This document shows positions 10 to 17,305 of a stretch of 61,363 nucleotides of DNA, in pieces (position 1 is the first letter of the stretch; the number at the start of each line of letters is the position of its first letter). The DNA is from Gammaproteobacteria bacterium. Its GTDB lineage: Bacteria; Pseudomonadota; Gammaproteobacteria; Ga0077536. The position numbers and the translations under genes were made by a program. The stretch is taken from assembly GCA_009692265.1 (NCBI GenBank), contig SHZM01000014.1, positions 1-61,363 of the forward strand, read 5' to 3'. The notes beneath the pieces are model-generated. The model did no database searches. It was not told the DNA's origin and saw only the letters and a list, made by a program, of their open reading frames with translations.

Positions 10-972
10 GTGACAATGCGGCTGCCGAGCACCTTAACAAGGCCCGGGAAATTCTTTTTAAATCTATTCCTAATCGACCGAAAGCAGCCGCCTAAGCCCA
101 GACTCAACTTCAACCCTTCAGACTCATACCTCGATTGGAATGTACTGAATACCCCGACCTCACGAATTCGCTCCGCGGCCCAAGGCTATGTGGAGTTTCA
201 AGGTACAGCCGAATTGATAGACGGCGACCCGATACTCTCACCCTTATCTGGACAAACCTGTGTTTGGTACCGCTATTCCGTTGCCCGCAAGGAACGCGCC
301 GGCGGTCAAGATGACCCCGGCTCAACCCGCTGGAATACTCTTTCCCGCGGCATCAGCGAGCACTTATTCCGACTCCGCGATGACACCGGCTTCTGCGTGG
401 TCGATCCGGATGCCGCAATCGTGACGCCTTCTGTTCGTCATTGCTAGTACGGCAATACGATGCAACCTCCGAGAATCAAAGAACCGAGCCGCTGGGCACG
501 CTGGTTAATGGCAGCGGGTTCCGGGAATAGCTATCGCTACATCGAAGAACTGATTGCTGCCGGAAACCCGCTCTTCGCCCTTGGCCAATTTCACACCCAT
601 GGTGGTGCTAACACTTCCGCTGATTCAGGGAGCGATATCGCCGCTTTGTTGAGCGCTTGGAAGCAGGACGGCGCCGAACTAAAGCGCCGATTCGATACGA
701 ACCAAGATGAAGCGATCGACCTACCCGAATGGGAATTCGCACGCGGCGAAGCGCGTGTGGAAGTGAATCGCCGTAGGCAACCGGGCGCGCCGCCACCAGC
801 GGTAGAGGTCCTGGGCAATACGTTAGACCCTGATCGCCCCTATCTGATATCAGCTGCCGCGCATGGAAAGCTAGTTGCTCAATTCGGCGGAATAGCTTTG
901 GTATTTATTGCAATAAGCGCCGTCGCGGCAGTAATTTTGAGCTGGGGTGCGCTGGTTCGCGCGACCGGTTAG
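10..972 (+). pseudogene. GIDE-domain membrane protein, interrupted by an in-frame TAG
   Basis: Two open stretches (GTG at 10 to TAG at 445-447, then 448-972) lie in the same frame and read as one protein of about 320 codons. The first part holds the GIDE-like core (IRSAAQGYVEFQGTAEL, LSPLSGQTCVWYRY), the domain of bacterial proteins annotated as E3 ubiquitin ligase-like, whose true role in bacteria is unknown. The second part continues it (YRYIEELIAAGNPLFALGQF) and ends in one C-terminal membrane helix. The stop falls where the family, as I recall it, has Trp before Tyr-Gly, so one G-to-A change (TGG to TAG) explains it. The first 9 bases (TTG CAA TGA) may be the end of an upstream gene. Either a pseudogene, two fragments, or a read-through codon; the first is most likely. 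Confidence 0.7.
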
Positions 973-5236: not shown

Positions 5237-5389
5237 AATTTCGACGACTTTTACGATGCCTTTCCGACTTCGCCGTCTCTGCTGTAAGGTGTGGGCCGGA
5301 CTTGGATGCGAGTCGAAACTGCCAAACTCTTGTGCTGAGCGGCTCTAAGTGCTTACAGTTACTTAAAATCAAAGACATAAGGATTCCCA

Positions 5390-5548
5390 ATGGCCAAGCC
5401 CAACTACGCCTTCGCTAAGCGGCAGCGTGATATGGCGAAGAAGCAGAAGAAGGAAGAAAAACGCCAGCGCAAAGCTGGAGCTCCGGAGCAATCCGCAGAC
5501 GGTAACGAAGACCTGCCGGTCGCCGACGAAATTCCGACCCAGGAGTAA
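5390..5548 (+). CDS. Small highly charged conserved protein (52 aa)
   Basis: The ATG at 5390 opens 52 codons to TAA at 5546-5548, with AAGGA a few bases upstream. The product starts MAKPNYAFAKRQRDMAK, followed by a Lys/Arg/Glu-rich helix (KKQKKEEKRQRKAG) and an acidic C-terminus (DLPVADEIP). I recall proteins with this MAKPNYxFxKRQRxxxKK start as short uncharacterised ORFs in many proteobacteria. The basic helix suggests RNA or ribosome binding, but no function is known. It stands alone between a tRNA gene and the broken tgpA. Confidence 0.75.
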   Translation: MAKPNYAFAKRQRDMAKKQKKEEKRQRKAGAPEQSADGNEDLPVADEIPTQE

Positions 5549-5578
5549 CGCCGTATTCGGGCACGCTTGATTCCTGAC

Positions 5579-7550
5579 TTATTGATGTCGCCGTGGAGAA
5601 AACTTACGCACCAAGTTTCTCAGTAAACTCGGCGCAATCCGCGCGCCAGCGTAGCGCAGGGTGGTGTATAGCGCGGTGATATGCGCAACATCGGAACCTA
5701 GGTCTGGTCGCGTCAGCACGACCCTTTGTGCATAACTCAGCGGACCCTCGTGCGGTGCACGAAGCAATTGAACGTGGGCAAGTTTGCGACAAAACTCCGC
5801 ATAGGCGCGAACTACCGGATCCGTTGAGTTGCGCGATTTCAGGGTAACGCGCGCTAGCCCACCGAGGATTAAAGCGACCTCTCCAGTAAGTCCAAATAGT
5901 AAGTCGCCAGCCTCCACGTCCTCCCAACCGAGTTCCGCCAGAAAATCCTGTTGGCGCTGCGTTGAATAGCCTAAAACCCACTGCGCCCATTCAAAGTTAA
6001 CTGCTTCCCACCACGCCGCCGCGCCGCGCCATGCTCTGAACACCGAGCCATTCCGATCGAGGATTCTCAGTGGCGAGCGCATATCCGCGAACGATTCAAT
6101 CCCGAGCGATAAACGCGAGGGCGCCACCACCGAGGTTGGATCCACGCGCACCCAACCTTCGTGCGGCAAATAAACTTCCGCCCAGGCATGGGCATCGCGT
6201 TGACGAATCAATAAGTAATCGCTGACTGGGTTGTACTCACCCCCTTGGTAACCAGTGACTACGCGGGCAGGGATTCCGGCCGCGCGCATCAGGACGGTGA
6301 AACTCGCCGCGAAATGCTCGCAAAATCCGGCGCGAGTTTCGAATAAAAACTGATCAACCGAGTCTCCCGGCAACGCGGGAGGGAGCAAAGTGTAGGCAAA
6401 CCCCTGTGTTTTGAAGTAAGCGAGGCCGCGCAATACTACGGCGCGTGGACTTTGCGCCTCTTTAACCCAACGTTGCGCAAGCGCGACCGCTCGTGGATGA
6501 CGTTGGCGCGGTAAGGCCAACGCCGCGTCGTTCGTCGGCGGTGAGATCGCGCCAGTGGTACTTCGTCGCGGACCGCAGCTCGTAGCGTACCCGACGCTTA
6601 ACCGTCGTGTTGCTGCGTAGCGACTGATCCGCGTACAGACGCATCATTCGACCGGTGCTGGTCACCGCATCAAGGCCAAGCAACCAGCGCTCGCCGGTTG
6701 CTTCCAGCAAAATCGTGTAGCGAAATTCTGGGCCTTGTGGCGTGATCGGGTGCGGTACACCGAGCCCAATATCGCCGGCGCGCCAGGTTCGCCCATCTGT
6801 TTCCCATAACACCGGACCACGCCAGTAACGCTCGGCGGCCGTGGGAGTTGGACCAGCGAACTTAGCGCGAAAGGCGATCTCGTCCGAGGTTCCCAATGAT
6901 GTAATTTGTCCCAAGGTCATGCTGTCGCTCAAGCCAGTGACAGCGCTGAAGGCATTCTGCGGCAGGCCCCATAGCGGTCCCGGCAGTCGCGGAAACAACA
7001 GGAACGCTACGAGCATGATGGGCAGGGCTTGCATCAGCATGAGCGACGCCAGTCGTATGCAGGCGATGTCACTGAATGCCGGCAGCGGACTATTGAATCT
7101 GATGATCCCGGCAGTAACCACGATCACGACTACCAACATCGAGACCGCCGTCAAAATGCTTTGGGTATAAAAGAAATTCGTCACTACCAGGAAGTAACTT
7201 AAAAAGTTGACGATATAAAAATCGCGTTCGCGTTCTAGTTCTAAGACTTTCAGCCCAATTAAAGCGGTTAGCAGGGCAATTCCAGCATCGCGACCGATCT
7301 GGCCGCGATAGCTGATATAAATCGCGACAAAAGCAGCTAACGCAAGCACCTGTTTGACGACCCACAGGGTACGATTCGCGCGGATCGGCAATGGCAAAAC
7401 ACCGTAGGCGCCGAGTAGTCGCCAGAGCGCGAACGCGCCGAAGCAGGCCAGGATCCCTAAATTAAAGCGCCCCGCATGCGGGGCGAGTGCGAGGCCCAGG
7501 CCGGCTATCGACCACAGGAGATGACGCGTCTGAATTGATGCCACCGTCAT
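5579..7550 (-). pseudogene. tgpA: TgpA-type transglutaminase membrane protein, frameshifted
   Basis: Two minus-strand frames together encode one TgpA-like protein. The upstream part (7550 to about 6530) carries several membrane helices of the DUF3488 region and the start of the periplasmic domain (RYWRGPVLWETDGRTW). The downstream part carries the transglutaminase core with the catalytic Cys in RAGFCEHFA, His in DAHAWAEV and Asp in VDPTS, then a DUF4129 C-terminus. The frame changes between 6533 and 6521: reading LTADER then skipping one base leads straight into AALALPRQRHPRA. So one extra base splits the gene. The ATG at 7550 overlaps the stop of the DUF58 remnant (ATGA). TgpA is essential in Pseudomonas aeruginosa; here it appears lost, unless the base is a sequencing error. 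Confidence 0.8.
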
Positions 7551-7639
7551 GCGTCGAACAAGGCTAAGGCGCGCAGCAATACAGCAAGTTGTTTAGTTCC
7601 GCGCGCGGCCGGATAGCTCACCGTAGGCAGCTCCAAGCC
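7547..7639 (-). pseudogene. 3' remnant of a DUF58 gene
   Basis: The last 30 codons match the usual C-terminus of DUF58 proteins: GLELPTVSYPAARG, then a helix ending LLRALALFDA, and a TGA overlapping the tgpA start by ATGA. DUF58 genes normally sit directly upstream of tgpA, after a MoxR ATPase gene. Upstream of codon Gly (7637-7639) the match stops and the sequence instead belongs to a histidine kinase gene on the other strand. The rest of DUF58, about 270 codons, and any MoxR gene are absent. Confidence 0.65.
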
Positions 7640-7640
7640 C

Positions 7641-9654
7641 ACGCACCCTCCGGACCTAGCGGATGACCTCATGTGGATGGTGCGATTACGGGCGGGCGAG
7701 TGTGGTCGCTTCGAACTCGAGAAGCGGATGCTGCACAAAAACCGCGCGCTGGTTTGGATCAAACTGGCGGTATCGGCACTGTGGCCCGGGCAGGTGCCGT
7801 GCATGACTCATATCGCGACCATTGAAGATATCTCGTCCCGCAAAGCGAACGAGCAGGCCTTACGCGAGGCGAACGAGCGTTTGTCGTTGGCCCAAACCGC
7901 CGCCCAGTTCGGCACCTGGGAATACGATTTCGCCACGAGCATTGCCGAGTGCGATGCGTATGTCCGCGCAGTGTTCGGGCTGCCGGGCACAGGGGTAATC
8001 ACCCAAGCAGATTTTTTGCGGCGGACTTATCCGGCTGATCGTGCAGCGGTCCTCGCCAGCATCCAGGCTGCGTTAACGGACGCGAACGACGGTAACTTTG
8101 CCGTCGAGCAGCGTGTGCTCCGCGACGGCGACTGCTGGATCGCGGCAACCGGCAAGATCTATCAGAGTCATACCGGGCCTCGCTTGATTGGGATTCTCCA
8201 GGACATCACCGCGCGCAAACGAACGGAATTTGCCCAGTTACGAGACGCGGCGATTCTGCAGGCCTATTTCGACAACGCCAACCTCATCGCGTGGGTGAAG
8301 GACTCCGACCATCGCTATGTTTATTTGAACGCGCGTTATCTGGCGCGCTTCGACGATCGCGACTACCTCGGCAAGACCAAATCCGATCTTTGGCCTGCGG
8401 ATTACGCGGCACGTTTTCAGCAGGATCATGAGGATTTACTCGCCGATGAACAACCTCGTGAGCGGCTAGATGAGGTGCCCGATAATCGCGGGAAAAGTAA
8501 ATTCTGGCTCTGTCACGAATTTGTGTTTCGCGACGCCGCAGGTGCTCGCTACGTCGGTGGCACCGGCATCGAATCGACCGCTCGAATAAAAGCGGAGCAG
8601 TCACAGCGCACTAGCGAGGCGCGCTTGCGAGCCTTTCTCGACAACAGTAACTTCATGGCCTGGATCAAGGACGCTGACGGTCGCTATGTCTTCGCAAATG
8701 AGACGTTCATGCAGCGCAACGGTGTGGTGGTGAGCGATAGTTCGCAGATTTCGGATTTTGATCTTTGGCCCGCGGAGGTCGTGAAAAGATTTCATCTAAT
8801 AGATCGACAAGTAATCGATCAGCAGCGCGCAATGGAGTATGTCGACGACCACGGCGCGCCAAATGGCGCGCACAATTGGTGGCTGAAACACAAATTCCCT
8901 TTAACTGACCAGGACGGAAAACAATATGTAGGCGCGCTTGCGATCGATATTACCGAGCGGACAGAGCTGCGCATCGCGCGTGACGAATTGCGCCAGTTGT
9001 CGCGTGGCTTGCAGGTCGTGCAAGAAGAGGAACGCAAACGCATCGCGCGCGAAATTCATGACGAGTTTGGTGGCACTTTGTCCATGATTAAAGGGTCTCT
9101 TTATCGCATTGAGAAAGAAGTAGCCACTTCACCCGCGAGGTTCCCCGCGATCTTGGAACAGCTCCGCGCGATGATTGACGCGCTGCTGCTCGCCTCGGAC
9201 ACCCTCGTCCATCGGCTACGACCGCCCAGTCTCGATCATCTAGGATTAGACGTAACCTTGCGGCGCCTCATCAAGACTTTTTTGCGAAGCGCACGGCCTC
9301 GAATGTTTGGTCGATCTGCCCGACCCCTTCCCGACCCTTCCCGAGGAATATGCAGTCAGCCTGTATCGTATTGCACAAGAGGCGTTGACCAATGTACAGA
9401 AACACGCGTTCGCAACTCGGATTGAAGTTGAGCTCGTGGTGGATGATCGGGAACTTGTGTTGGAGGTGCGCGATAACGGCTGCGGGTTCGCGCCAAAGGC
9501 ATCGACCCGTAAAGGTTTTGGCCTGACCGGCAGTCGCGAGCGCGCCGGCTTAATCGGCGGTGAACTGACCATCACTCCCCGCGACAGTGGCGGCACCTGC
9601 CTGCACATCTCCCTCCCTTCGCCTCTTAGAAGCGATATCTTTGTGGAGGGTTAA
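7641..9654 (+). pseudogene. Multi-PAS NarL/UhpB-type sensor histidine kinase, 5'-truncated and frameshifted
   Basis: Homology begins abruptly with the second half of a PAS domain (THPPDLADDL at 7641, then RFELEKRM and IEDISSRKA). Three further PAS/PAC units follow (to about 8960), then the HisKA_3 dimerisation helix with phospho-accepting His in IAREIHDEFGG (about 9045). The ATPase domain lies in another frame (YRIAQEALTNVQKHA, VRDNGCGF, SRERAGLIGG; about 9307-9640). Removing one T from the six at 9278-9283 joins them as IKTFCEAHGLECLVDLPD. It therefore lacks its N-terminus and promoter and cannot make an intact kinase. No response regulator gene follows, which is unusual for this type. Confidence 0.8.
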
Positions 9655-9664
9655 TCGCTAACCC

Positions 9665-10996
9665 TCAATCGCCGGCGATCGTCATCTCGGCGACTAAAAT
9701 GGAACCGGTAGCTATGCTGCTGCGCAGTTCGCGATCCGTCCCAGTGGCCACAATCGCGCGGAACATCTCGCGTAGAGTGCCGGCGATCGTAATTTCTTCG
9801 ACCGGATAGGCCACTGCGCCGCGTTCCACCCAGAATCCGCTGGCACCGCGCGAATAGTCGCCGGTGAGTAAGTTCACACCGAAGCCCATTAAATCCGTGA
9901 CGATGAGCCCTGTATCCATTTGGCGAACGAGGGAGTCGTGGTCGGCACCTTGATCGCTAACTACAAGGTTATGAATTCCACCGGCGTTGCCGGTTGGCGG
10001 AAGCTTCAAACGTCGCGCGCTGTAGCCGTCGAGAACATAACCGGTTAACACGCCCTGGTCGATTAAGCGTCGCGCGATAGTTGCCGCGCCTTCACTATCG
10101 AACGGTGCCGAACCGAGCCCTCGCAATAAATGCGGATCTTCGTCGATGTTCAGGAAGGACGGCAAAATCTGCGTGCCGGCGGCATCGCGTAGAAATGACG
10201 CTTCGCGGTAGAGATTGCCTCCGGAAATCGCCGCGACCAAGTGGCCGATGAGGCCGGTCGCGATGCGCGCTTCGAACAGCACTGGCGCCTTGCGCGTGGT
10301 GAGTTTGCGAGCACCGAGTTTCGCCACAGCCCGCGCACTCGCGGTTTGGCCGAGCGTGACGGGATCTTCCAACGCGCCGGCGTTGCGTGCAGTGCTATAC
10401 CAGTAGCCGCGCTGCATCGCGCCGTCGCGCCTTCCAACAACGGTGCAATTCAGCCCGTGTCGGGTCGCGATGTAGCTGCCAACAAATCCTTGAGTGTCGG
10501 CGTAGGCGTGGAGGCCGCGATACAGACTCAACCCCGCATCGTCAACTTGGTCCACTTCGCGCTCGGCATTTCGTGCAGCCTCTTCGCAGGCGAGCGCTAT
10601 TTTGGTAGCTTCATCAATCGCGATCGACCATGGATGATCCAGATCGAGCTGCGGGATCTCGGTGGCCAGATGGCTCGGCGCAATTAACCCGGCATACGGA
10701 TCGGACTCGGCGAAGCGCGCGATCCGGGCGGCGGCCGCGAGGGTTTCGGCCAACGATTCGGGGCTGAAATCCGTAGTACTCGCCGAGCCTTTTTGAAAGC
10801 CTTGATAGACCGTGACCCCGAGTGACTTATCGCGATGATGCTCCAGGGTTTCTAGCGCCTGATTGCGGACACTGAGTGAAAAGCCTTCACCGGCGTTAAT
10901 ACCAACCGCGGCGGTGAGTCCGAGGCGGCGCGCGTGCGCAATTACCCCTGAAGCGATCTCAACCGCAACTCCTTCCCCAAACAGTTGATTGCTCAC
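9665..10996 (-). CDS. pmbA: Metalloprotease PmbA/TldE
   Basis: A 443-residue member of the TldD/PmbA family. PmbA (TldE) pairs with TldD to form a cytoplasmic protease that trims modified peptides such as microcin precursors and degrades the antitoxin CcdA. Recognisable parts are YQGFQKGSAST in the N-terminal half and the C-terminal barrel with GSAPFDSEGAATIARR, PTGNAGG and GVNLLTGDYSRGASGFWVE. TldE lacks the catalytic HExxxH, and none is seen here, as expected. tldD is not in the window. Length is normal and the ATG at 10996 fits. Confidence 0.93.
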   Translation of the reverse strand: MSNQLFGEGVAVEIASGVIAHARRLGLTAAVGINAGEGFSLSVRNQALETLEHHRDKSLGVTVYQGFQKGSASTTDFSPESLAETLAAAARIARFAESDPYAGLIAPSHLATEIPQLDLDHPWSIAIDEATKIALACEEAARNAEREVDQVDDAGLSLYRGLHAYADTQGFVGSYIATRHGLNCTVVGRRDGAMQRGYWYSTARNAGALEDPVTLGQTASARAVAKLGARKLTTRKAPVLFEARIATGLIGHLVAAISGGNLYREASFLRDAAGTQILPSFLNIDEDPHLLRGLGSAPFDSEGAATIARRLIDQGVLTGYVLDGYSARRLKLPPTGNAGGIHNLVVSDQGADHDSLVRQMDTGLIVTDLMGFGVNLLTGDYSRGASGFWVERGAVAYPVEEITIAGTLREMFRAIVATGTDRELRSSIATGSILVAEMTIAGD

Positions 10997-11090
10997 GGTG
11001 ATGTTCCTTCAGGACAGTGGTGTTGGCATTGTAGCGGATTCAGGATCATGCGCTCTGTGATCGTCGTCGTCGGCTCGTTAGAATCGTCGG

Positions 11091-13229
11091 ATGTCCATGA
11101 CCCGCGCGTTAGAACGCCTCAACACCGATCAGCAACAAGCAGTGACTACCGCAGCCGCGCAGGCGCTGGTGCTGGCGGGTGCCGGCAGTGGTAAAACGCG
11201 CGTGCTGGTGCATCGGATCGCCTGGTGCCTCGAACAAGGACTCGCGGCACCCACGGGAATCCTCGCTGTCACGTTTACGAACAAGGCGGCGGCGGAAATG
11301 CGCGGGCGCATTGAAGCCCTGCTCAATCGACCTCTCGGCGGCATGTGGGTCGGGACCTTCCACGGGATCGCACATCGTTTGCTGCGCGCGCATTGGCGCG
11401 AGGCGCGGCTGTCCGAACAGTTTCAGATCATCGATGCCGACGATCAGCAGAAAATGCTGCGGCGGGTGATTCGTGGTCTCGATCTCGACGAAGAGCAGTG
11501 GCAGGCGAAGGAAGCTCAGTGGTTTATCAGTGCGCGCAAGGACGAAGGCCTGCGTCCGGACAAGCTCCACGACGGCGATGATCCCGGCATGAAAACCATG
11601 ATCCACATTTACCGCAGCTACCAGGAGGCCTGCGAACGCGCGAGCCTGGTGGATTTCGGTGAGTTACTGCTGCGCGCCTACGAACTGTGGCGCGATACCC
11701 CAGGCCTGCTCCGACACTATCGCGAACGATTCTTTCACGTGCTGGTCGATGAATTTCAGGACACTAACGCGTTGCAGTATTCGTGGTTGCGATTGCTGGT
11801 TGGGGAGTCCGCGAATTTCTTCGCGGTCGGCGACGACGATCAGTCGATTTATAGCTGGCGCGGCGCACAGGTCGAAAACATGCAGCGCTTTCGCCGCGAC
11901 TACCCCCAGCACGCTTTGATCCGGCTCGAGCAGAATTATCGCTCGACCGGCACCATTCTGGATGCCGCGAACGCCTTGATCTCGAACAACACCGCGCGCC
12001 TGGGCAAAAAGCTCTGGACCAACGGACAACGTGGTGAAGCGATCAAGCTTTATGCGGCGTACAACGATATCGATGAAGCACGCTACTGTGTCGATCGCAT
12101 TCGGCTATGGCACGACGATGGCGATCGCTTCGCCGAGTCGGCGATTCTGTATCGAACCAGCGCGCAATCGCGGGTCATGGAAGATGCGCTGCGCCAGGCC
12201 GAGATGCCTTACCGGGTGCATGGCGGTTTCAAGTTCTATGAGCGCGCCGAAGTTAAAGATGCATTGGCCTACCTGCGCCTCATGCACAACCGACAAGATG
12301 ACCCCGCGTTTGAACGGATCATCAACACCCCGACCCGCGGGATAGGTAATCGTACAGTGGACGAGATCCGCAATACCGCGCGGCTTGAACGCCTGAGCTT
12401 GTGGGAGGCGGCCGTGCGCCTGATCGCCGCCCGCGAATTGGGGGCGCGCGCGGCCGGCATGTTAGGCAGCTTCCTGCGCTTAATTGACCTTGCCGCCGAA
12501 CAGTTACAGGGGCTCGCGCTTGATTCGATGCTCGATACGGTGATCGAGCACAGTGGGTTAGTCGAGCATTACCGCAAGGAAAAAGGCGATCGTGGCTTGG
12601 ATCGGATCGACAATCTCGCCGAACTCGTGAGCGCGGCACGCGATTTTGTGCCAGACGAAAACACTGAAGAGTTGCCCTTGGTGGCGGCGTTTTTAAGCCA
12701 CGCGGCATTGGAAGCTGGCGAAGGTCAGGGCAGCGAGTTCGATGATTGCGTGCAATTGATGACCCTGCACGCCGCTAAAGGACTCGAATTCACGAATGTG
12801 CTGATCGTGGGAGTTGAAGAAGGCCTGTTCCCGCATTCGCGCTCGATCAGTGATCCCAATCAACTCGAAGAAGAACGCCGACTGTGCTACGTCGGCGTGA
12901 CGCGTGCACGGCAGCGCCTGGTAATGTCGTTCGCCGAATCTCGTCGCCTTCACGGCAGTGATTATTACCCGCAACCCTCCCGCTTCTTGCGCGAATTTCC
13001 GAGTGAACTCATTGAGGAGATCCGGGTCGGCGGTGCTCCGACTGTGCAGGCGGTCCGGGAAACTGAAGCGAACGGGTTACGGCTAGGACAACGTGTATTA
13101 CACCGCACGTTTGGCGAAGGGATCGTGCTGCATTTAGAAGGGCGCGGCGCGCACACCCGGGTGCAGGTAAACTTTCCGGGCGGGGTTAAGTGGTTGGTTG
13201 CGGCTTATGCAGCGTTAGAGGCGATGTAG
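11091..13229 (+). CDS. uvrD: DNA helicase II UvrD
   Basis: A 712-residue superfamily 1A 3'-5' helicase for mismatch and nucleotide excision repair. Motifs in order: I GAGSGKTR (30-37), Ia TFTNKAAAEM, II VDEFQDTN, III GDDDQSIYSWRGA, IV QNYRS, V MTLHAAKGLEF, VI RRLCYVGVTRA. The C-terminal LGQRVLHRTFGEG segment is the Tudor-like domain that lets UvrD contact RNA polymerase; it separates UvrD from Rep. An alternative ATG sits 6 bases downstream. It is divergent from pmbA with a 94-base gap. Confidence 0.95.
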   Translation: MSMTRALERLNTDQQQAVTTAAAQALVLAGAGSGKTRVLVHRIAWCLEQGLAAPTGILAVTFTNKAAAEMRGRIEALLNRPLGGMWVGTFHGIAHRLLRAHWREARLSEQFQIIDADDQQKMLRRVIRGLDLDEEQWQAKEAQWFISARKDEGLRPDKLHDGDDPGMKTMIHIYRSYQEACERASLVDFGELLLRAYELWRDTPGLLRHYRERFFHVLVDEFQDTNALQYSWLRLLVGESANFFAVGDDDQSIYSWRGAQVENMQRFRRDYPQHALIRLEQNYRSTGTILDAANALISNNTARLGKKLWTNGQRGEAIKLYAAYNDIDEARYCVDRIRLWHDDGDRFAESAILYRTSAQSRVMEDALRQAEMPYRVHGGFKFYERAEVKDALAYLRLMHNRQDDPAFERIINTPTRGIGNRTVDEIRNTARLERLSLWEAAVRLIAARELGARAAGMLGSFLRLIDLAAEQLQGLALDSMLDTVIEHSGLVEHYRKEKGDRGLDRIDNLAELVSAARDFVPDENTEELPLVAAFLSHAALEAGEGQGSEFDDCVQLMTLHAAKGLEFTNVLIVGVEEGLFPHSRSISDPNQLEEERRLCYVGVTRARQRLVMSFAESRRLHGSDYYPQPSRFLREFPSELIEEIRVGGAPTVQAVRETEANGLRLGQRVLHRTFGEGIVLHLEGRGAHTRVQVNFPGGVKWLVAAYAALEAM

Positions 13230-13234
13230 CGGCC

Positions 13235-13252
13235 GCGACCCCGCAGGGTCGC
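13235..13252 (+). terminator. Hairpin after uvrD
   Basis: A perfect 7-bp stem, GCGACCC/GGGTCGC, with a CGCA loop starts 6 bases after the uvrD stop. It lies between convergent uvrD and the diheme cytochrome gene. There is no long T run (TTGCGCTTGG follows), so it is a weak or Rho-assisted terminator. Confidence 0.45.
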
Positions 13253-13274
13253 TTGCGCTTGGTTCGCACGCAGC

Positions 13275-14114
13275 TTACTGGCTGTTCGAAACCATGAAAT
13301 CGACAGCAGCCTTGATATCCTCATCGGAGAAATCCGGTCGGCCGCCTTTGGGTGGCATTAAACCGGCTTCACCCATGAAGCCGTTGACGGAATGGTCGTA
13401 GAGCATCTCGATCCCTTTCGCGATACGCGGTGCCCACGCTGCAGCGTCCCCAAATTTCGGTGCGCCCGCAGCCCCTGGAGTGTGGCAGGCGAAACACACC
13501 GCATCGAAAACTTCTTTACCTTTCCCCGTGTCGGCGACGGCGGGTTCCGCAGCGGCCGGCGCCGGCGGTGCAGCCGCGGTGCTTCCGCCTTGCGCCGCCG
13601 TGACCATGTAATCCACCGCGGCTTTTACTTCGTCGTCCGTCATATCGACTCCGCCGCCCTTGGGCGGCATCAGGCCTGCACTGCCTTGAAAGCCTTCGAC
13701 CGCGTGTTTGTATAAAGTCTCGACACCGAGCGCTATGCGGGGTGCCCACGCTTCGGGGTCACCACGTTTTGGCGCGCTGGCGATGCCCTGGGCATGACAG
13801 GCAAAACAAACTTTGTTGTAGGCTGCCTCGCCTGGACTGGCGGCAGTCGCAGGGACGGCCGCAGCCGCGGGGTCAGCAGGCGGGGCAGAACCCGCGAGGG
13901 TGAGTGTTTCTCCGCTGGTATTTGCGGCGCCGACTGGCGCGATCCGACTATCGAGATCACTGGCGTCATAGATGCCTGTACCAGTGACGAACTCGTGGTA
14001 CACGTGTCGGGCCAGGAAGGTAATGGTGATGCCGATAACCGTCAGCAGCAGCACCAGAGCGAAATTTCGCACAAATAGCGCGTCCTGTTGCGCGTTGTCG
14101 TGGCTCGAACTCAT
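13275..14114 (-). CDS. Membrane-anchored tandem c5-type diheme cytochrome
   Basis: The 279-residue protein has one N-terminal membrane helix (LVLLLTVIGITITFLA) and two repeats of a short cytochrome c domain joined by an Ala/Pro-rich linker (AAPPAPAAAEPA). Each repeat has a CFACH heme site and the c5-like LMPPKGG loop supplying the axial Met. It should sit on the periplasmic face of the inner membrane and shuttle electrons to an oxidase or reductase. Two-domain c5 cytochromes are common in sulfur oxidisers and denitrifiers. It is divergent from cbbQ, so the two may share control. Confidence 0.85.
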   Translation of the reverse strand: MSSSHDNAQQDALFVRNFALVLLLTVIGITITFLARHVYHEFVTGTGIYDASDLDSRIAPVGAANTSGETLTLAGSAPPADPAAAAVPATAASPGEAAYNKVCFACHAQGIASAPKRGDPEAWAPRIALGVETLYKHAVEGFQGSAGLMPPKGGGVDMTDDEVKAAVDYMVTAAQGGSTAAAPPAPAAAEPAVADTGKGKEVFDAVCFACHTPGAAGAPKFGDAAAWAPRIAKGIEMLYDHSVNGFMGEAGLMPPKGGRPDFSDEDIKAAVDFMVSNSQ

Positions 14115-14211
14115 GTAAAAACATCCTCATGCTAACGCCGCGACTAGCGGCGAACGACGTTCAAATTCAGCGGGAACCGCGCATAACCCCACCCCTGCGC
14201 GATCGGGCGGC

Positions 14212-14217
14212 ATTATA
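14212..14217 (-). promoter_or_regulatory. Candidate -10 box for the diheme cytochrome gene
   Basis: On the minus strand this reads TATAAT, about 95 bases before the cytochrome start at 14114. A leader with a CGCCGC/GCGGCG stem (14136-14152) would follow. No good -35 is present at the usual spacing, so an activator may be involved. Confidence 0.35.
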
Positions 14218-14245
14218 GCGACTTTGCACTGTCACACTAGGGACG

Positions 14246-14260
14246 CGCTAGGGCCTAGCG
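14246..14260. promoter_or_regulatory. Perfect 15-bp palindrome upstream of cbbQ/norQ
   Basis: CGCTAGG-G-CCTAGCG is a perfect inverted repeat in the divergent promoter region, 76 bases before the likely TTG start of the AAA ATPase gene. About 10 bases further on is TTGAT-TTCGA-ATCAT (14270-14284), close to an FNR/CRP-family half-site pair but with a 5-base rather than 4-base centre. Either could be an operator controlling the ATPase/VWA pair or the cytochrome. The regulator is unknown. Confidence 0.35.
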
Positions 14261-14335
14261 ACGAGCGCCTTGATTTCGAATCATAATGCGCGCAGCCGCA
14301 TGCCCTTCACCCATAATTTTGAAAAGGACCACAGC

Positions 14336-15145
14336 TTGAATACTGCAAGCGATGCAGCCGAGCGCATGATCGAAGACGAACCCTACTACGAACCGGCCGG
14401 CGGCGAGATTGAGGTGTTTACCGCCGCCTATCGAAACCAATTACCGGTGTTACTTAAAGGTCCGACTGGCTGCGGCAAAACCCGATTTATTCATTACATG
14501 AGTTGGGTTTTGCATCGACCGTTAGTCACCGTGGCTTGCCACGACGACCTTACGGCCGCCGATCTCGTTGGTCGCTACCTCGTGCGAGGCGGCGAAACTC
14601 AATGGCTAGATGGCCCGCTGACCCATGCGGTGCGCACGGGTGCGATCTGTTATTTGGATGAGATCGTTGAAGCGCGCAAGGACACTTCGGTGGTCATCCA
14701 CCCGCTCTGCGACGACCGCCGGATTCTGCCGATCGACAAGCTCGGACAGTTGCTGCGGGTGCCAGCAGAATTCTGCCTGGTGGTGTCGTACAACCCGGGG
14801 TATCAGAGCGTGCTGAAGGATCTGAAGCAAAGCACCCGGCAACGCTTTGTGGCCCTAGAATTCAATTATCCAGACACCGAACACGAACAGAAAATCGTCG
14901 CGACCGAAAGCGGCGTTGAGGCGGAGACGGCGCGACGCTTGGTCAAATTCGGCATCCATACTCGTAACCTCAAAGGCAGTGGTTTGGACGAGGGCGCGAG
15001 TACTCGCTTGTTAGTCAATGCCGCGAAATTGATTACCAACGGTATCGCACCGCCGCTCGCTTGCGATACGGCGGTCGGTCATGCGTTAACTGACGATCCG
15101 GAAATTTTGCACGCCATACATGAATTGGCCGCGGCAGTGTTTTAG
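14336..15145 (+). CDS. CbbQ/NirQ/NorQ-family MoxR AAA+ ATPase
   Basis: A 269-residue AAA+ protein that, with a VWA partner, remodels a metalloenzyme: RuBisCO (CbbQ) or nitric oxide reductase (NorQ). The Walker A motif GPTGCGKT is at 42-49, Walker B is ICYLDEI near 106, and the family signature [12 protein letters not shown] lies between them. TTG 14336 is chosen because AAAAGGA (14322-14328) is well spaced and DEPYYEPAG then falls at the usual place; ATG 14300 and TTG 14270 are in frame but less likely. The VWA gene follows 15 bases after the stop. The client cannot be told from this sequence. Confidence 0.85.
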
Positions 15146-15160
15146 GGAACTCTCGCGGCA

Positions 15161-17305
15161 GTGGACGGCGCGCGCCAAAATTTATTTAATCTAATCCGGG
15201 TCCAAAAAGATCTCGAGAAGATCTCCGGTCAAATTCTCGCACGCCTGCCACGGGCAGGCGATCTCGTCGCTGATATCGCGGATCTCGAACGCGATACACA
15301 GGACTTCATCTACCACTGGACCGAAGTCATAGCGCTGTCGAACGAAGAGCTGGCGGCACATTTCATCGCGAAAGCACCGCTAGCCTTTAGGTTTCTCGAG
15401 GAAGCCGCGGTCGAGGGGTGGATTATCAAAGCGATGGACGCTTTTGATAATCGAGGTCTTGGTTTCGCTATTGAAATTTTCGATGATCTCCAGGGCTACG
15501 TCGACGCCCATCAACAACACCAAACCGGCTGCCGCTTTGATCAAGTCGCGGGCTTGTTACGCTATTTAGTCCGCGGACTCGGCGGGCGCGCGTTGCAGCT
15601 CGCGTGCGAGCCAATGGCCTACACTGATACCGAGCGAATCTGCTTACCACCGACCCTCGGGGCGTTTCCCGAGCGCGACGAAAACGCCCGACTCTACAAA
15701 TGCACCGCGGCGTTTTTATGGGCACAGAATCGCTATGGGACGTGGCGCTACCGCGTGCTTGAGCAGGCCATTCGACAGCTGGACGCGGCCACTACCTGGC
15801 CGATCTATCAACGACTCGAAACAGTACGCCTCACTGCCTGCATTTCCCGCGATCTGCCGGGTCTAGCGCGCGAAATGGCAACCATAGCGCATGCCGATGA
15901 AGCGGCGCGGGAGAGCTGGGAGCGCTTCACTGCGCAAGCCTTCGATCTTTGCGCCATTGACGCGGGCGCCGAGCACTGCCTCCAACGGGTCGTGGATTTC
16001 ATTGGGAAACCCTTACCGCCACCGTTGCAGTACCAGGGCGAAATGTTACCCGCCAAAGTGCGCGAAGTGCTGTTCAAACGCGTCCCGCGCGAGAAAGCGG
16101 CCTTGCAGCAGGCGCTCGCAAGCCTGCAACAGGAACTCGGCAACGAGCAATCCCAAGATCCGGAATCTGGTCCGACGGGGGACGCGGCGAACCGATTTTC
16201 GATCTCGACGACGGAAAGTCCGGGGGGTGCGGCAGATTTCGAGAGCCTCGAATTTAACGATCGAGCTGTCCCAACTGGACCGGAACTGGAGGCGCTGTTG
16301 GCGTCGATTCTGCAAGATCTCGGCGAGGTGGAGGACGATTACTTGAATGCCGGGACGTTGGGAGACAGCTATCCGGCGAGTGCCGAGCTTGGTCAGGGTC
16401 CGGGCATGGAGTTGGGGGAATTCGATCACGGTAGCCGCGTTGAGCTGTACCCGGAATGGGATTACACCCGACAACGCTTTCGCGAAGCGTTCTGCGCGCT
16501 GACTGAACAAGACGTGCCCTTTGGCAACGAAGACTTCGTGGTGCAAACGCGGGCCAAATATCAGGGCTTATCGAAATCCATTCAACGGGTGTTCGAGGCG
16601 ATCTTGAGTGAGGCGCAACGCCAGAAGAAACAAGCCCACGGCGATGAACTCGATCTCGACGCCCTCGTCGAAGCCCATGTTGATCGCCTCCAAGGGCGGG
16701 AGATGAGTGATCGGCTGTACACCCATTTCCGTAAATCCGGCCGCAGTGTCGCGGTGATGTTCATGGTCGACATGAGTGGCTCGACCAAGGGCTGGGTTAA
16801 TGAAGCCGAACGTGAGTCGCTGGTGCTGCTATGCGAAGCGGTCGCGACCTTGGGGGATCAGTATGCAATCTACGGCTTTTCTGGGCGTACGAATAAGCGT
16901 TGCGAAGTGTATCGAATCAAAACGTTCGACGAGGGATACAGCAGCAATGTACGGCGACGGATCAGCGGCATGGCCCCGAAAGCCTATACCCGGATGGGGG
17001 TTGCGATCCGTCATCTGGGGAAATTACTGAGCGCCGTCCCCGCGCGGACAAAACTCCTTATTACGCTGTCCGACGGGAAACCCGAGGACTACGGCAGCTA
17101 CCGCGGGCGCTATGGAATCGAAGATACGCGTCACGCGCTACTAGAAGTAAAGCGCAGCGGAATCCATCCGTTTTGCATCACGATCGATAAAGAGGCGCAA
17201 TCCTATTTGCCGCACATGTACGGCGCGTCGAATTTCACGGTCGTCGATGAGGTGCATAAATTGCCCTACAAAATCGCCGACATTTATCGTCGGCTGACGA
17301 CCTAA
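15161..17305 (+). CDS. CbbO/NorD-family VWA-domain activator
   Basis: The 714-residue product starts at GTG 15161. It has a long helical N-terminal region (1 to about 330), an acidic low-complexity middle (about 330-430), and a C-terminal von Willebrand factor A domain with an intact MIDAS (DMSGS, then TRMGVAIRH and LSDGKPEDYG). This is the adaptor partner of CbbQ/NorQ; the VWA domain binds the client while the ATPase ring pulls. Length favours CbbO slightly over NorD, but the evidence is weak. It forms an operon with the ATPase and converges on dnaG. Confidence 0.83.
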   Translation: MDGARQNLFNLIRVQKDLEKISGQILARLPRAGDLVADIADLERDTQDFIYHWTEVIALSNEELAAHFIAKAPLAFRFLEEAAVEGWIIKAMDAFDNRGLGFAIEIFDDLQGYVDAHQQHQTGCRFDQVAGLLRYLVRGLGGRALQLACEPMAYTDTERICLPPTLGAFPERDENARLYKCTAAFLWAQNRYGTWRYRVLEQAIRQLDAATTWPIYQRLETVRLTACISRDLPGLAREMATIAHADEAARESWERFTAQAFDLCAIDAGAEHCLQRVVDFIGKPLPPPLQYQGEMLPAKVREVLFKRVPREKAALQQALASLQQELGNEQSQDPESGPTGDAANRFSISTTESPGGAADFESLEFNDRAVPTGPELEALLASILQDLGEVEDDYLNAGTLGDSYPASAELGQGPGMELGEFDHGSRVELYPEWDYTRQRFREAFCALTEQDVPFGNEDFVVQTRAKYQGLSKSIQRVFEAILSEAQRQKKQAHGDELDLDALVEAHVDRLQGREMSDRLYTHFRKSGRSVAVMFMVDMSGSTKGWVNEAERESLVLLCEAVATLGDQYAIYGFSGRTNKRCEVYRIKTFDEGYSSNVRRRISGMAPKAYTRMGVAIRHLGKLLSAVPARTKLLITLSDGKPEDYGSYRGRYGIEDTRHALLEVKRSGIHPFCITIDKEAQSYLPHMYGASNFTVVDEVHKLPYKIADIYRRLTT

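Follow-up and report, generated by a model that had tools for sequence, protein, structure and literature searches.

MoxR, DUF58 and transglutaminase proteins are treated together in papers on bifidobacteria and mycobacteria. The locus described here lies in a window of 61,363 nucleotides that is one whole contig (C28) of a gammaproteobacterial assembly of 3.4 Mb in 118 contigs, estimated to be 95% complete. Compared with a MoxR-DUF58-transglutaminase (TgpA-like) set, the window keeps tgpA, divided between two reading frames, and the end of duf58, but lacks moxR and some 90% of duf58. Facing the duf58 remnant is the 3' part of a gene having the same domain content as multi-PAS histidine kinases with HisKA_3 and HATPase_c domains. 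Unlike those kinases, it lacks its N terminus, is split over two frames and is adjoined by tgpA and pmbA rather than by a response regulator gene. Bacterial pseudogenes that result from truncating deletions or frame changes are likewise truncated stubs with frame changes and lost upstream cistrons (PMC522871, PMC9336565); the sole special feature here is that two stubs meet flush and head to head. The event thus looks like gene decay and loss of an ordinary kind, and we consider it rather probable that the deletion is real and recent and struck a decaying locus into which the kinase gene had already entered.

The intact form of the locus was sought in relatives. A DNA search with positions 5560-9700 as query gave matches in 35 of 58 genomes and none in the other 23 (both 58 and 35 include the window's own genome). 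The loci fetched were 24 stretches from 21 relatives, several of which belong to one genus. As these were chosen because their DNA matched the tgpA region or because they adjoin such a match, the counts describe the locus where it was found and not its frequency. The genes moxR, duf58 and tgpA occur together in 21 of the 24 stretches, the other three (L035, L100 and L101) being contig pieces that carry one side each. The gene order pmbA-moxR-duf58-tgpA was found in all 17 stretches that have pmbA and moxR on one contig, with moxR and duf58 at the place that the join occupies in the window.

The interval between the matched parts of pmbA and moxR is at most 346 bases in 13 of these 17 loci, which have no gene-sized gap, and 1.6-1.8 kb in the other four. 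Each wide gap holds a complete sthA that is convergent with pmbA (L103, L104, L105 and L108, all single contigs). Altogether sthA lies beside moxR in six relatives of four genera: the four just named, L032 with L100, and L033. In G003 and G005, which belong to the window's genus, sthA adjoins moxR and is oriented like the window kinase. One G003 contig ends within sthA after moxR and another starts with the rest of sthA beside pmbA, hence its adjacency to both genes is inferred, and the G005 contig ends short of pmbA. The G005 gene scores above the NCBIfam cut-off for Si-specific NAD(P) transhydrogenase; the two G003 pieces are 81 and 83% identical to it and the remaining copies 73-79%. The sthA history is thus that of six genomes, two of which have a contig break within the interval or next to it.

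Conservation of DUF58 is clear on the minus strand between a Gly codon at 7637-7639 and the stop codon at 7547-7549; this stop and the tgpA start overlap as ATGA. A single-sequence DUF58 comparison within 6 kb gave a weak match (E 0.004, 48% over 27 residues). When a profile built from the DUF58 C termini of 18 relative loci was compared with 1793 six-frame segments, the best was 7550-7807 on the minus strand, with an E value of 1.2e-7 (runner-up 0.17). This profile match together with the alignment delimits a duf58 3' stub of the last 30 or so codons plus the stop (7547-7639, minus strand). The profile also aligns weakly for five residues beyond the Gly codon, so that up to about 15 bp might be common to both sides of the join.

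On the plus strand, PAS homology begins at about the Thr codon at 7641, that is, inside a PAS domain. The start was compared with eight kinase loci, preselected for apparent matches to the beginning of the kinase piece in a previous search; seven of these matched, all from residue 1 (the best at 48.8% over 80 residues), and the 15 residues upstream had no evident similarity in the four rows compared. Upstream in the kinase frame there is a TAG at 7614-7616, after which no ATG, GTG or TTG occurs before ATG 7671, the first start codon, from which an open reading frame of 7671-9425 runs. The first-pass annotation had placed the DUF58 and PAS limits at these same codons and had stated that both genes lack their 5' ends; the DUF58 profile and the PAS alignment bear this out. 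DUF58 homology stops and kinase homology starts at 7639-7641, limits that are accurate to a few residues. Around the join, no convincing remnants of moxR or sthA were seen.

The first frame of the kinase (7641-9425, plus strand) encodes Pfam PAS_4, PAS_9, PAS_3 and HisKA_3 domains, whereas the C-terminal ATPase domain (HATPase_c, E 6.4e-16) lies in another frame at 9307-9654, also on the plus strand. The coding-frame plot places the change near 9.3 kb, and strong coding signal persists in both frames. There is therefore no frame with a complete sensor, HisKA and HATPase, and the first PAS domain is cut. GC content by codon position in the kinase resembles that of the neighboring genes. As a separate observation, two PAS units (8246-8320 and 8615-8689) share 72% DNA likeness, a sign of internal duplication.

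No close relative of the kinase was found in the samples searched. Neither kinase piece has a match at E 1e-5 in the 24 relative stretches, and hence none of them supplies the missing kinase front or holds a full kinase gene beside a complete moxR-duf58 pair, the intermediate that the first-pass annotation had proposed to look for. The kinase as an ancestral neighbor of the operon is thus not supported. In searches of whole genomes, none of 39 relatives gave a match at E 1e-30. Matches at E 1e-15 were found in 8 of 35 other genomes of the family and 36 of 368 of the class, and at E 1e-25 in 7 of 397 of the phylum, all at the level of generic similarity. Note that these samples (36, 369 and 398 genomes with the window's own) overlap and their totals are not additive, and that up to three candidates per genome were scored in the class and phylum searches. 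In the class search, the top-scoring match was 33% over 258 residues and the top identity was 48%, over the first 81 residues. A genome_contigs scan gave two loci with partial matches of 30-31%. Among plasmids, 311 records match, all at below 60% identity (24-30% in the eight matches listed).

Kinase and pmbA are convergent, with their stops 10 bp apart, and a hairpin at 9646-9666 with perfect 8-bp arms spans both stop codons. Such hairpins are not rare in the window (13, versus a mean of 9.1 and a maximum of 16 in 20 simulations), so that solely its position is notable, and that is no more than suggestive. It was rejected as a terminator, having no T run and being absent from the list of the terminator scanner. 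A promoter scan of 5300-11100 found none, versus 2.6 expected, an uninformative difference. Repeats that flank the kinase piece are short or imperfect (for example, 16 nt at 81%, 7606-7621 and 9799-9814; an inverted repeat of 15 nt at 80%, 7571-7585 and 9711-9725) and were taken as chance.

No intact set, with moxR and full duf58 upstream of tgpA, was found around the window tgpA or elsewhere in the assembly, and locus-type moxR and duf58 were likewise not found outside the locus in this 95% complete assembly. All matches of the G003 locus MoxR to the assembly are at most 45% identical, in contrast to 71-77% with the locus copies of G001, G002, G004 and G005. The MoxR copy on contig C44 has its own counterpart at 78-89% in five of five genus relatives, which also keep the locus copy. 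DUF58 matches above the cut-off number four, on contigs C44, C24, C90 and C68. The G003 locus DUF58 matches the C90 and C44 copies partially at 30-31% and the C24 and C68 copies not at all at E 1, compared with 54-56% for G001 and G005. One sthA-like match, at 35%, is present. The duf58 front, moxR and sthA (if ancestral) are thus missing from the assembly, although at 95% completeness they could be unassembled. The moxR-duf58-tgpA set is kept in all five of the genus relatives examined, so that its loss from the window genome is a lineage-specific event.

Downstream of the stub, the N-terminal membrane part of TgpA is encoded at 6462-7550 (minus strand; Pfam TgpA_N, E 1e-70), and the transglutaminase core and DUF4129 are encoded in another frame at 5579-6520 (minus strand; Transglut_core, E 4.4e-26; DUF4129, E 1.1e-12), the coding-frame plot placing the change near 6.5 kb. 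The right flank of the lost segment is an intact pmbA (9665-10996, minus strand; above the NCBIfam PmbA cut-off), followed as outer flank by an intact uvrD (11091-13229, plus strand; above the NCBIfam DNA helicase II cut-off), which is near pmbA in relatives also. In trees, the flanks group with the genus, with support of 99% for uvrD plus pmbA, 100% for the tgpA C part and 52% for the tgpA N part. Inside the genus, the window genome is placed with 62% support. Inner branches have low support in the tgpA trees, and for the N part the tree is weak at the level of the genus. The ratio of the tgpA branch to that of uvrD plus pmbA was compared with relatives that have complete loci. It was 2.1 for the N part in the window, compared with 2.3 in G005, 3.1 in G003 and 3.8 in G001, and for the C part it was 1.9 in the window and in G005, 3.9 in G003 and 4.0 in G001. 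As the window branch is not longer than those of relatives, any loss of constraint looks recent. Judged from these sequences, tgpA appears to have undergone no clear long-term acceleration, its decay being late or the gene still being in use.

The first-pass annotation had explained the layout by a single deletion. That proposal stands for the duf58 front and moxR, where loss in the window genome is well supported by the 17 one-contig loci and by the absence of locus-type copies elsewhere in the assembly, but one deletion from the ancestral layout is probably not enough, since the kinase has no match in the 24 relative stretches and its arrival seems to be needed as well. The kinase probably entered the pmbA-moxR interval before the deletion. 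Under the preferred reading, an ancestor with the order pmbA-(sthA)-moxR-duf58-tgpA, as in relatives, would have received a multi-PAS histidine kinase gene between pmbA and moxR and convergent with pmbA, sthA, if present, being lost before or at that entry. One deletion would then have removed some of the kinase front and, with G003 as the measure, about 1.8 kb of duf58 and moxR sequence, so that duf58 now breaks off near codon 287 and continues into the middle of a kinase PAS domain. The recombination apparently needed no long repeat, and a promoter was presumably lost. Afterwards tgpA, its upstream cistrons gone, and the headless kinase would have acquired frame changes, leaving remnants that probably do not work. 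The position of the kinase stop, 10 bp from that of pmbA under a common hairpin, is what one would see if the gene had been whole at first and its front had gone later. The leftovers of both genes are split between frames and tgpA is not accelerated, hence the decay looks recent. According to PMC522871, many prokaryote pseudogenes seem to stem from failed horizontal transfer, an origin that would fit the window kinase.

The absence of kinase matches in the relative stretches, the merely generic similarity in genome searches and a join that is flush or nearly so would also agree with a replacement in one step, in which foreign or distant DNA, by way of illegitimate recombination or repair, brought in a kinase fragment without a 5' end in exchange for the duf58 front, moxR and any sthA. 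We regard this as unlikely: the close approach of the kinase and pmbA stops under a common hairpin is unexpected for a random fragment end, and the base composition of the kinase is like that of its neighbors. A false assembly join, in which the two sides are in truth separated by moxR, the remainder of duf58 and the front of the kinase gene, had been said by the first-pass annotation to look the same. This rival still has to be reckoned with, given an assembly of 118 contigs that is 95% complete and given possible errors in the window (its two frame changes and a single in-frame stop), but it looks less likely than that annotation allowed. Assemblers join at shared words, and here the homologies meet flush or have at most about 15 bp in common, with no repeat found: the 601 bases around the join match only themselves in the assembly, and of the words within 40 bp of it, two 12-mers but no 14-mer occur again in the window. 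Moreover, locus-type moxR and duf58 were not found elsewhere in the assembly, and both flanks group with the genus (albeit at only 52% for the tgpA N part). A false join therefore seems to us quite improbable.

Use of the remnants, with TgpA and the kinase made at reduced function via frameshifting or reinitiation, would be in keeping with the unraised tgpA branch length and the coding signal left in both kinase frames. However, we give it very little credence, as the kinase starts inside a PAS domain and has its HisKA_3 and ATPase domains in different frames, and tgpA is deprived of its overlapping upstream gene. The pmbA-moxR interval might be a site of turnover, with sthA in some genomes, no gene in most of those examined and here an orphan kinase whose arrival triggered loss of moxR-duf58-tgpA; this we hold to be doubtful.

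For annotation, the duf58 stub, tgpA and the kinase look like pseudogenes, and the assembly alone is no basis for scoring this species as having this MoxR-DUF58-TgpA set. A second, distant MoxR-DUF58-transglutaminase set is on contig C90 (L040 and L048), with 44% MoxR, 30% partial DUF58 and 37% partial transglutaminase matches. One guess is that it could make loss of the pmbA-side set bearable.

The frame changes in tgpA and the kinase could themselves be assembly errors. Six other places in the window were looked at closely for frame changes. At 10-969 (plus strand), a reading frame is broken by TAG 445-447 and stays open beyond it in the same frame; neither half has a Pfam match at E 0.001. 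It may be a further broken gene or an error of the assembly. On the other side of the locus, uvrD is followed by a putative cytochrome c gene and a putative cbbQ/cbbO-like pair (11091-17305), an order that is kept in G001, G008 and G003.
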